64,000 nucleotides of DNA, from NCBI RefSeq assembly GCF_000337095.1, contig NZ_AOIV01000004.1, positions 21,021-85,020 of the forward strand, given 5' to 3'. A program made the translations under genes and the position numbers. Source of the DNA: Halogeometricum pallidum JCM 14848. GTDB lineage: Archaea > Halobacteriota > Halobacteria > Halobacteriales > Haloferacaceae. The notes beneath the pieces were generated by a model that worked only from the letters and a program-made list of their open reading frames with translations, was not told where the DNA came from and did no database searches. Shown here in pieces: positions 3,193-39,473 of the stretch; within the stretch, counting starts at the first letter, position 1, and each line of letters opens with the position of its first letter.

Positions 3193-3200
3193 ACCACAAG

Positions 3201-3219
3201 ACACCACGTTTCCGGTGAA
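3201..3219 (-). repeat. ORB 1
   Basis: ACACCACGTTTCCGGTGAA (minus-strand orientation). It lies 9 bases upstream of the orc start codon and belongs to the ACGTGGTGT subclass. It shares 23 identical bases, counting flanks (3199-3221), with the isolated copy at 38808-38830. Confidence 0.9.
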
Positions 3220-3248
3220 ATGGCTTGTCATCTTCCGGTCCGACACAC

Positions 3249-3267
3249 ACACCACGTTTCCGGTGAA
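3249..3267 (-). repeat. ORB 2
   Basis: Identical 19-base core to ORB 1, same orientation, 48 bases further from orc. Confidence 0.9.
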
Positions 3268-3312
3268 CGGCCCCACACCCGGGGGTAGGTCCAGTCGAAA
3301 CGGGGGAGGAGG

Positions 3313-3332
3313 TTCACCGGAAACACGGTGTG
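3313..3332 (+). repeat. ORB 3
   Basis: TTCACCGGAAACACGGTGTG, opposite orientation to ORBs 1 and 2; one base off the perfect dyad form. Confidence 0.88.
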
Positions 3333-3612
3333 CCCGGAGAGTTTTCCCTTGGCTCAGCGAGAAAACGACGGCCGGACATCGTCGATGAAGGACGGATAGC
3401 ACCCCGTAACCCAACGAAAACCGGGAGAGAAGAGTCGGCCATCCGACGACGAGCGGAAACTCGAGCCGACACCTCGGCGTGAGAAGTTGTCCCGAACGCG
3501 TACCGAGCAGAGGACTTCCGAACGACTCCGGAACAACCCCAACTTCGCGTCCAGTTGGCTCGAAACTCGAGCCGTTCACTGTCTACGAATGCATCAATGG
3601 ACTTTTACACTA

Positions 3613-3633
3613 AACAACTATTTAATAGTTGTT
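3613..3633. repeat. AT-rich perfect palindrome in the presumed unwinding element
   Basis: Ten-base arms AACAACTATT and AATAGTTGTT flank a single T. It sits in the most AT-rich part of the origin, between the two ORB groups, and is the best candidate for the duplex unwinding element. Confidence 0.6.
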
Positions 3634-3759
3634 GTATTGTTCTCCCCGGGGTGGTCGTTTTCTCTCCCGCCTTCTCTGCGGGTTAAGGATACCGGCGTGC
3701 GCACGTCGGGCGAAGTCCGGACCGATTCCGACAAAGTAGGCCGCGGCTACCGAAGCTGA

Positions 3760-3779
3760 TTCACCGGAAATGTGGTGTG
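3760..3779 (+). repeat. ORB 4
   Basis: TTCACCGGAAATGTGGTGTG, a divergent copy with ATGTGG in place of ACCCGG, on the right side of the AT-rich element. Confidence 0.88.
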
Positions 3780-3845
3780 ATCATCACTCGCACGAGGGTT
3801 GTGATACCGACGTGTTGACGGCTGCTACCCGATTGAGCGACGATA

Positions 3846-3865
3846 TTCATCGGAAACCGGGTGTG
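3846..3865 (+). repeat. ORB 5
   Basis: TTCATCGGAAACCGGGTGTG, two differences from the consensus. Confidence 0.82.
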
Positions 3866-3940
3866 GGAAAAATTCACGGAGGCGGGGCTGTGACGCGAGG
3901 AGAGAACTACACCTACCGACGGCGTCGCCGCTCACACCGA

Positions 3941-3960
3941 TTCACCGGAAACCCGGTGTG
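3941..3960 (+). repeat. ORB 6
   Basis: TTCACCGGAAACCCGGTGTG, consensus copy. The core is an inverted repeat CACCGG-AAAC-CCGGTG. Confidence 0.92.
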
Positions 3961-3997
3961 TCCGCGTCCCACGAAACCCGTCACCAGTTCGTGTCAT

Positions 3998-4017
3998 CTC
4001 ACCGGAAACCCGGTGTG
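3998..4017 (+). repeat. ORB 7
   Basis: Consensus copy except the first base (CTCACCGGAAACCCGGTGTG); starts 57 bases after ORB 6. Confidence 0.92.
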
Positions 4018-4087
4018 CCCCGCGGCGTTGACCGCCGTCAATCGGTGGGTCCGCCACCGAGAGACGCCTCGTCCCGCCTTATTCCGT

Positions 4088-4107
4088 TTCACCGGAAACC
4101 CGGTGTC
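4088..4107 (+). repeat. ORB 8
   Basis: TTCACCGGAAACCCGGTGTC, consensus but for the last base. Confidence 0.92.
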
Positions 4108-4176
4108 CGCCCGCACGCTCGGCTACCGTCCGTCCGACACAACATCCTTCGTTGAGTCGGCGCCGCCGGGTACCGC

Positions 4177-4196
4177 TTCACCGGAAACCCGGTGTG
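4177..4196 (+). repeat. ORB 9
   Basis: Consensus copy, the last ORB before the next gene; 89 bases after ORB 8. Confidence 0.92.
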
Positions 4197-37052: not shown

Positions 37053-38504
37053 TCAGTTTCCGTTTCCGCTCTCGCTCTCGACGCCCATCGCCGCGAACAG
37101 TTTCTTCCGGACCGCCTCCTCGGTGAGTTGGAGCAGGGTGTCACGGTTGTCCTCGGACGTCTCGATGCCGGTGAAGATTCCGAGCGGAATCTCCACGTCG
37201 CCCTGCGTGGAGTGGCCGCCCGCCTCGCCGATGCCCTGGAAGGCGTCCTGCAGGACGTTACCGATGTTCATCCGGATGTCCTTCGACCGCGCCGAGAGGT
37301 AGATGTTGTTGTCGACGATGCCGAAGACGGCCGTTGTCGTCACGCCCTCGAGGTTGAGGAGGTGCTGGGCCGCCTGTCCGAGGGCGTCCCTGTCGCGGAT
37401 GAACCCGGCGTTCGAGACGAGGTGGCTCCCCTGCACGTCGCGGTTCTGGATGGCCTCGGCCAGCACGTCCAGCGTCTCCGGCGACATCGACGGGGACTCC
37501 ACCTGTTCGAGCGTGTCGTGGTCGGCGAACGGGTAGAGATACGCCGCGGCGGTCAGGTCCGCGGGCGTCGTCTCGCGCTTGAAGTCCAGCGTCTCCGCGC
37601 GGATGCCGTACAGCAACGCGGTGGCGACGGCCTCGCTGGGGCTGATGTTGAACTCCTGGATGTACTTCGTGAGGATGGTCGACGTCGAGGAGACGTTCGG
37701 TCGGACGTCGATGAACGCGGGGTCGATGACCTCGCTCGGTTCGAAGTGGTCGATGAAGACGTCCACCTCGGTGCCGATGTCGGGTTCGCCCGACTTCATG
37801 TGGTCGACGAGGGCTACCGCGCCGTAGGAGGCGAGGTCCGGCGCGTCAGACAGTCGCAGCAGGTCGATGCCGAGGAGGTTGACGAACGCCCGGTTCTCCT
37901 GGTGGCCCATCTCGCCGTCGTAGAGGATGTCCGCCTCCACGTCGAACTCGGCGGCGATGGCCTGCAGAGCGGCGGCGCTGGCGATGGAGTCGGGGTCGGG
38001 GTTGTCGTGCGTCAGGATGGCCAGCGTCCCCTCCGTCGCCTCCAAGAGGTCGGCCAACTGCCGGGCCTTGTACTCCAGTTCGCCCGACTCCAGCGAACGG
38101 AGCGCGGAGTCGGCGATAACCTCCGAGGGGGTGATGACCACGTCGGCGCCGAGTTCGGCGAGTTCGTCCTCGGAGACGGGGTCGGAGGCGCGGACGACGA
38201 TGAACTGGTCGTCGCCGCGTTCTCGGATGGTGGACACGGCCGCCTTGTTAGCTTCGACGTCCGAGGAGAGGATGAGGACCACGTCCCGGTCGCTGACGGC
38301 GTCCCCGACTTCGGACTCGGAGATATCGGTCGTCTGCGCGTTCAGGTCCTGGTCGCGGAGGGCCTCGACGCGGCTCTCGTCCTTGTCGAGGATGAGGACG
38401 TCCTTTCCCTCCTCGGTGAGTTCCTCCGCGACGGCGTGCCCGACGCTCCCGCATCCCAGAATCGCGTAGGTGGACATCGAGGAGATGGTGACCCCAGCAC
38501 TCAT
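37053..38504 (-). CDS. TrkA-N/DHH-family phosphoesterase fusion
   Basis: A 483-residue protein. Residues about 10-130 are a Rossmann TrkA-N (RCK) nucleotide-binding domain, starting TYAILGCGSVGHAVAEEL. Residues about 155-330 form a DHH phosphoesterase domain with THDNPDPDSIASA and IDHFEPSE, where DHH reads DHF. Residues about 340-480 are DHHA1, with EAGGHSTQGD. Such proteins cleave cyclic dinucleotides or nanoRNAs, here perhaps in response to NAD or ATP; this is inferred. ATG 38504 is chosen since a TTAAG element lies about 30 bases upstream; ATG 38477 is an alternative. It is downstream-convergent with the PRC gene and divergent from tRNA-Lys. Confidence 0.88.
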   Translation of the reverse strand: MSAGVTISSMSTYAILGCGSVGHAVAEELTEEGKDVLILDKDESRVEALRDQDLNAQTTDISESEVGDAVSDRDVVLILSSDVEANKAAVSTIRERGDDQFIVVRASDPVSEDELAELGADVVITPSEVIADSALRSLESGELEYKARQLADLLEATEGTLAILTHDNPDPDSIASAAALQAIAAEFDVEADILYDGEMGHQENRAFVNLLGIDLLRLSDAPDLASYGAVALVDHMKSGEPDIGTEVDVFIDHFEPSEVIDPAFIDVRPNVSSTSTILTKYIQEFNISPSEAVATALLYGIRAETLDFKRETTPADLTAAAYLYPFADHDTLEQVESPSMSPETLDVLAEAIQNRDVQGSHLVSNAGFIRDRDALGQAAQHLLNLEGVTTTAVFGIVDNNIYLSARSKDIRMNIGNVLQDAFQGIGEAGGHSTQGDVEIPLGIFTGIETSEDNRDTLLQLTEEAVRKKLFAAMGVESESGNGN

Positions 38505-38650
38505 AATCGTCAGCACCTCTGGTCGGACGACACTTAACAGCACTCGTTTCCCGCGGTAGCGTCTGCGAACCGACTCGTTCGCCGACAGCGGCCCGGTTCG
38601 CCGGGTCGGCGGCGTGCGTGGTTCTCCCACCGAGGGGCTTAAACGAAAGG

Positions 38651-38660
38651 TCTTTACTTA
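38651..38660 (+). promoter_or_regulatory. TATA box of tRNA-Lys
   Basis: TCTTTACTTA lies about 28 bases before the tRNA. Confidence 0.6.
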
Positions 38661-38684
38661 CCCCGCGGAAACGAACGATTGCAC

Positions 38685-38758
38685 GGGCCGGTAGCTCAGT
38701 TAGGGAGAGCGTCTGACTCTTAATCAGACGGTCGGGGGTTCAACTCCCTCCCGGCCCG
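38685..38758 (+). tRNA. tRNA-Lys (anticodon CTT)
   Basis: Complete 74-base cloverleaf. Acceptor GGGCCGG pairs with CCGGCCC, discriminator G. The anticodon arm is TCTGA-CTCTTAA-TCAGA, anticodon CTT. The T arm holds GTTCAACTC. No CCA encoded, no intron. Confidence 0.95.
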
Positions 38759-38807
38759 CTCACATTCTCTTCGGGACGACCGAACCCGCCGAGCATCGCC
38801 GCTCGTC

Positions 38808-38830
38808 AGACACCACGTTTCCGGTGAAAT
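38808..38830 (-). repeat. Isolated origin recognition box, 35 kb from the origin
   Basis: AGACACCACGTTTCCGGTGAAAT is identical over 23 bases to the ORB next to orc (3199-3221). It begins 50 bases after tRNA-Lys in a 258-base spacer (38759-39016) that has no gene. I found no other ORB outside the origin, though a computed scan was not possible. Confidence 0.85.
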
Positions 38831-39016
38831 ACCCACCGAGAGATTCTCGGACGCTCGAAATTTGCTTCTGTCGCTCGCCTCGAATCAAATCGGTTCCGCG
38901 GAATCCGCCCGTCCGTGCCGTCGACGCGGCCGACGCTCTCCGTCCTGTCCGTTCGGCGGGGAACCCGGCGAAGAAGGGGTCGAATTGAGTCGCCGCCGAG
39001 ACGCGACGTTCCGCCG

Positions 39017-39361
39017 TCAGACTCTCACGCGCCGATCGCGTTCGTCACGGTCCTCGTCGACGGGGCGCGCGTCGTCGCGTCTCGGAGCGGTCGGTCGCTG
39101 GGCGTGGTCGACGCCGACGAGTTCGGTGACGCGCCACGCGTTGCCGCGCGAACCGAGCGACTCCATCTTTAAGGGTACCGTCGCGCCCGTCGGAAGCCGC
39201 GCCAACGTGTGCTTGACGGCGTCGCTCTCGCACTCGACTATCTGCCGTACCTCGTTCGACGCCTCGACGCGTACCGTCATCGCGCCGTGGTCGTTCATCG
39301 GCCACTCGATTCGCGCCGTCGTCGTCTCCGCGCCGGATGGGTTGGTGGGGTGAGACCGCAT
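39017..39361 (-). CDS. Small haloarchaeal protein, paralogue of the gene at 10892
   Basis: A 114-residue protein. Residues about 17-73 match the 93-residue protein at 10892 (ARIEWPMNDHGAMTVRVE, SNEVRQIVECESDAV, HTLARLPTGATVPLKME, GNAWRVTEL). The C-terminal 35 residues are a charged Arg/Asp tail absent from the paralogue. ATG 39361 is chosen over GTG 39370 because a TTTAAG lies about 30 bases upstream. Function unknown. It flanks the isolated ORB on one side and an Lrp-family gene on the other. Confidence 0.75.
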   Translation of the reverse strand: MRSHPTNPSGAETTTARIEWPMNDHGAMTVRVEASNEVRQIVECESDAVKHTLARLPTGATVPLKMESLGSRGNAWRVTELVGVDHAQRPTAPRRDDARPVDEDRDERDRRVRV

Positions 39362-39473
39362 ATTAGACACCTGTCACTACACCATCTTAAACTCTAGTTT
39401 GCGTACTCTGAATTTATTATCAATTTGTGAGAATCTACTATATGGGTGAAGAAATATCACGTCTCACCGATGT

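Follow-up and report, generated by a model that had tools for sequence, protein, structure and literature searches.

The stretch analysed here (hereafter the window) comprises 64,000 nucleotides of the Halogeometricum pallidum JCM 14848 genome. Near its start lie the initiator gene orc1/cdc6 and the origin recognition boxes (ORBs) of oriC1, and about 35 kb further on a solitary ORB, site A, is located in the gap between a tRNA-Lys gene and the gene for a small conserved protein (Table 1). Orc1 is the presumed ligand of this box. Over exactly 23 nt, site A has the same letters as positions 3199-3221, close upstream of where orc1 starts, and beyond these the match ends sharply at both sides. Its neighbours are the tRNA-Lys, small-protein, DHH and AsnC-type genes, none of which is an orc/cdc6 gene. 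In the other four Halogeometricum species compared, the tRNA-Lys gene lies 49-75 bp from the ORB core and the homologues of the small protein are 67-87% identical. A scan for promoters, terminators and repeats around site A gave nothing informative.

Table 1. Features of the window and the four satellite ORB sites of Halogeometricum. Ranges separated by dots or hyphens are window positions; distances in kb are relative to oriC1.
Feature	Position	Strand	Remarks
orc1/cdc6, initiator of oriC1, 401 aa	1987..3192	-	Pfam Cdc6_lid, Cdc6_C, AAA_22
oriC1	3199..4194	.	nine ORBs; + strand: 3202, 3250; - strand: 3312, 3759, 3845, 3940, 3997, 4087, 4176
AT-rich unwinding element of oriC1	3582..3645	.	72% AT per 60 bp
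TrkA-N/DHH/DHHA1 protein	37053..38504	-	divergent from tRNA-Lys; synteny marker, does not adjoin the ORB
tRNA-Lys (CTT)	38685..38759	+	3' end to start of ORB core, 51 bp
Site A, solitary ORB	38808..38830; +35 to +66 kb	+	AGACACCACGTTTCCGGTGAAAT; identical to 3199-3221; core invariant in five species; tRNA-Lys/small protein junction
Site A, 19-nt core	38811-38829		by the G-string convention, an ORB of the - strand
Small conserved protein of 117 aa without a family	39017..39370	-	convergent with tRNA-Lys; ORB within the 3'-3' gap
Site B	+155 to +207 kb		arginase/gyrA junction
Site C	about -225 to -280 kb (on a separate contig; contig adjacency taken from synteny with other species)		peroxiredoxin (bcp)/CDC48 junction
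Site D	about -20 kb (measured in G000)		amidohydrolase/histidine ammonia-lyase (hutH) junction

Site A belongs to the oriC1/Orc1 class of ORBs, being an exact match to the cognate oriC1 consensus, which is common to Haloferax, Halobellus, Haloprofundus and others; the recognition sequence CACCNNNTTTCCGGTGAAA is identical in haloarchaeal oriC1 ORBs and in site A. When the window was searched with the 19-nt core at ≤3 mismatches, nine matches were obtained, eight in oriC1 (3202-4194) and one at site A, and the same search of 100 shuffles of the window sequence gave none. In a genome of 4.38 Mb (45 contigs), 0.0008 exact matches and 0.046 matches at ≤1 mismatch would be expected by chance, which confirms the claim of an earlier note on this DNA that the 23-base identity to the ORB beside orc is beyond chance.

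A scan of the source genome with CACCNNNTTTCCGGTGAAA at ≤1 mismatch returned, besides oriC1, matches at C4:2067, C4:4506, C4:59831 (site A), C4:185867 and C3:19959. The match at C4:2067 and its counterparts were rejected as satellite ORBs, being a coding coincidence inside an ORF that encodes TTFPVKSL; CACGACGTTTCCGGTGAAA is conserved within this ORF (L101:2067, L111:3363, L114:8080 and L118:8288), which calls for caution in ORB scans. The matches at C4:4506, C4:185867 and C3:19959 are intergenic solitary ORBs outside the window, so the earlier statement that no other ORB or orc gene is near holds within the window, and the genome has three more such boxes elsewhere. By comparing flanking DNA in five Halogeometricum genomes (the source and four others, including Halogeometricum limi, G001), we found four orthologous solitary-ORB loci outside oriC1, sites A to D, each present in all five and each consisting of a single box and not a cluster. 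A control scan of the five genomes with the reversed pattern gave no matches. Although the same scan that recovered site A also yielded the coding coincidence at C4:2067, the probability that site A is itself a chance match or a coding coincidence is negligible: it is non-coding, the same junction carries the box in further Halogeometricum species, and the probability that four other genomes would by chance have an ORB in the corresponding gap is about 1e-22.

For sites A and D, no counterpart was found outside Halogeometricum, and site B was also detected in Halobellus (L214, L216) and in G011 (L156). The expectation of the earlier note that the box be conserved at the same tRNA was borne out in the five Halogeometricum species and failed beyond them: Haloferax, Halobellus and the remaining genera examined had no ORB beside tRNA-Lys at the loci inspected. 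Several genera without an ORB at tRNA-Lys bear solitary ORBs at other junctions. One genome, G017, has a solitary ORB (L162:3377) about 730 bp downstream of an AsnC/transporter pair that adjoins site A in Halogeometricum; as this box lies 3' of the transporter and without a tRNA, it was not counted as site A, and it may be a satellite ORB that was relocated or arose independently. Haloprofundus genomes share a further ORB match (L213:3052, L158:3338) in an alignable context, which may be coding.

In the alignments of each locus, the ORB bases are kept, whereas divergence is seen in the 3-nt spacer and in the gap around the box. The core of site A, CACC-NNN-TTTCCGGTGAAA, is unchanged in 5/5 Halogeometricum species, with spacers of ACG, ACG, TCG, GAG and GGG. 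Single positions vary within the ORB at sites B and D, and some Halogeometricum copies of site C have one mismatch (TTTCCGGTAAAA). Given that the spacer of site A differs among species and that the recognition bases alone are kept, its conservation appears to follow protein recognition and not recent shared ancestry with the orc-proximal ORB, from which the earlier note had suggested it might derive. At the bcp/cdc48 junction (L222-L251, e.g. L103:3479-3500), a TAAAC-like motif comes after the ORB of site C, and about 10 bp further there is a semi-palindrome near CAACTAGTTG (GAACTCGTTG in Haloferax). This combination was not seen at sites A, B or D or at oriC1, and the semi-palindrome is possibly the site of a second protein.

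The origins published for haloarchaea combine ORBs in inverted arrangement with an AT-rich element and a neighbouring orc gene (PMC3528665, PMC4595724), and site A is without this structure. No second ORB at ≤3 mismatches was found near it within the window, no orc/cdc6 gene adjoins it, and the surrounding sequence (38400-39100) has no AT-rich element, its maximum being 50% AT per 60 bp vs 72% at oriC1. Dormant origins do exist in Haloferax mediterranei (PMC4595724). A cognate ORB in a non-coding gap could by analogy be a back-up or dormant initiation site with low-frequency MCM loading, but with all the parts of published origins missing we regard this as very unlikely. A relic of a former origin, as proposed in the earlier note, or of an element integrated at tRNA-Lys, is hardly credible: tRNA genes are common integration sites, but the second ORB, the unwinding element and the orc gene are all lacking, a core that stays invariant in five species while its flanks diverge is the opposite of decay, and nearly all haloarchaea examined have kept tRNA-Lys and the DHH gene in synteny.

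All four sites lie between convergent genes, usually 30-190 bp past the stop codon or 3' end of one of them; at site B of the source genome, an acyl-CoA dehydrogenase gene intervenes, with its start about 690 bp away. They share the same chromosomal orientation, which with n=4 is not significant. Located where two convergent units end, at the 3' ends of genes, they are ruled out as promoter elements. The earlier note had also suggested regulation of the small gene or the DHH gene, and this does not fit the arrangement, in which tRNA-Lys and the small gene both have their 3' ends towards the ORB and the promoter of the DHH gene lies across the tRNA. Judged from sequence, the satellite ORBs are maintained, predicted Orc1 sites, neither origin relics nor promoter elements.

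Site C was found in 11 of the 25 genera of the family that were sampled, and in 15/15 Haloferax genomes; in these, it follows the end of the bcp match by 87-233 bp and is essentially the only satellite ORB. It is 225 kb from oriC1 in Haloferax marinum, if the 3.07 Mb contig is circular, and 181-458 kb from it in other genomes with both on one contig. In several lineages, including Haloquadratum, the conserved oriC1 initiator has no close orthologue (no match at E≤1e-150; G009, G123, G126, G128 and G184, with loci L258, L239, L255, L257 and L260), which suggests that their main origin system has been replaced or has strongly diverged. Among genomes with bcp and CDC48 directly convergent in the stretch compared, an ORB was present in the bcp-cdc48 gap in 27/27 Orc1-positive and 0/5 Orc1-negative genomes (Fisher p = 5e-6) and, if only the 24 copies at ≤1 mismatch are counted and the three decayed ones at 3 mismatches are set aside, in 24/27 vs 0/5 (p = 3e-4), both p-values being indicative because the test ignores relatedness. 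On a tree of bcp and CDC48, the Orc1-negative label needs three changes, of which well-supported branches force only one. The Orc1-positive g14 genomes (probably Halorubrum) have the oriC1 class of ORB and no ORB at bcp, and CDC48 is not adjacent there. Orc1 appears to be necessary for site C but is not sufficient, as these genomes have Orc1 without the box, and site C is dispensable. A distance rule, by which a large separation of bcp and oriC1 would entail loss of the ORB, was unsupported, since g14 genomes lack the ORB at both 232 kb and 728 kb.

The setting shared by the four sites could also mean that converging transcripts at genes of importance (gyrA, cdc48 and tRNA-Lys) are kept apart by Orc1, as a roadblock or insulator. 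We consider this improbable: the genes at the four junctions are unrelated, many other convergent junctions in the genome have no ORB, the proximity to the origin is left unexplained, and the ORB of site C persists in several genomes without a detected directly adjacent CDC48.

The reading that we prefer, with a probability of about one half, is that the sites are selectively maintained, predicted Orc1 sites that would retain Orc1 in early-replicated DNA and thereby fine-tune initiation at oriC1. A small set of single ORBs at fixed convergent-gene junctions, roughly 20-280 kb from oriC1, would be occupied by Orc1 in vivo. Lying in early-replicated DNA, these boxes would be doubled soon after initiation and so may hold back or position Orc1, and its retention there could fine-tune the firing or the copy number of oriC1. 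The placement between gene ends would allow Orc1 to sit on the DNA without disturbing promoters. Titration by site A, which the earlier note had raised, is still a live reading; the one to four boxes, essentially one in Haloferax, would make a small sink beside the nine or more of oriC1, and plain mass titration looks weak.

Next after Orc1 retention ranks an architectural or segregation role, in which Orc1 on a satellite ORB would bridge to oriC1 or mark an origin-proximal domain, in the manner of parS, leaving the level of free initiator unchanged. The clustering near the origin, the low number of high-quality sites (one to four), the exact conservation of their positions and the shared orientation of the four fit such a positional role better than a sink. 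Nevertheless, we hold it to be unlikely, as the positions of the sites turn over between genera and, to our knowledge, no bridging activity of an archaeal Orc1 has been described.

Retention of Orc1 at satellite ORBs would have partial counterparts in known systems. In Haloarcula hispanica, oriC2D negatively controls oriC2, with an effect graded with ORB number, and titration has been proposed (PMC3936714). Both that locus and the satellite sites have ORBs for a cognate initiator outside the origin proper; origin activity is absent from oriC2D and predicted to be absent from the satellite sites, site A having no origin structure. However, oriC2D has 11 ORBs in 722 bp, downstream of and directly beside cdc6E, and serves oriC2/Cdc6E (PMC3936714), whereas the satellite ORBs are single, about 20-280 kb away and of the oriC1/Orc1 class. 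The datA locus of Escherichia coli, with five DnaA boxes and IHF, promotes DnaA-ATP hydrolysis (PMC5295017) and limits initiation; the satellite ORBs resemble it as predicted initiator-binding loci away from the origin and differ from it in having one box and no known co-factor. Removal of DnaA-box clusters in Bacillus subtilis leads to early initiation, according to Okumura 2012 as cited in PMC5295017. As described there, these oriC-proximal clusters jointly delay initiation and, like the predicted Orc1 sites of the satellite ORBs, are several dispersed initiator sites outside the origin; they are bacterial, clustered and bound by DnaA, in contrast to single archaeal ORBs at gene 3' ends. The satellite ORBs also stand alone, unlike the nine of oriC1, which are inverted around an AT-rich element beside orc1. 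With regard to what marks an initiator titration locus, a cluster of boxes is absent, sites A to D being single, and a location outside an origin and without origin structure is found at site A.

Published surveys of haloarchaeal ORBs covered only the neighbourhoods of orc/cdc6 genes (PMC3528665, PMC4595724). In the literature searched, the coverage of which was incomplete, neither conserved single ORBs remote from an origin nor haloarchaeal Orc1 ChIP-seq were found described. There is little understanding of how initiation is limited in archaea, and the only sink that has been proposed, oriC2D, adjoins its own initiator gene. The co-occurrence of the site C ORB with Orc1 adds an evolutionary argument beyond motif scoring alone, and, with the remote bcp/cdc48 ORB conserved in all Haloferax genomes examined, long-range initiator control can be tested in a genetically tractable model archaeon. 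For the Haloferacaceae, we tentatively propose that conserved, dispersed single initiator sites at convergent-gene junctions around oriC1 may form a long-range layer of control over replication or chromosome domains, which would depend on the cognate Orc1 and whose boxes would be gained and lost individually. These remote single sites at fixed junctions suggest that DNA replication in salt-loving archaea is under a form of long-range control that has gone unrecognised.
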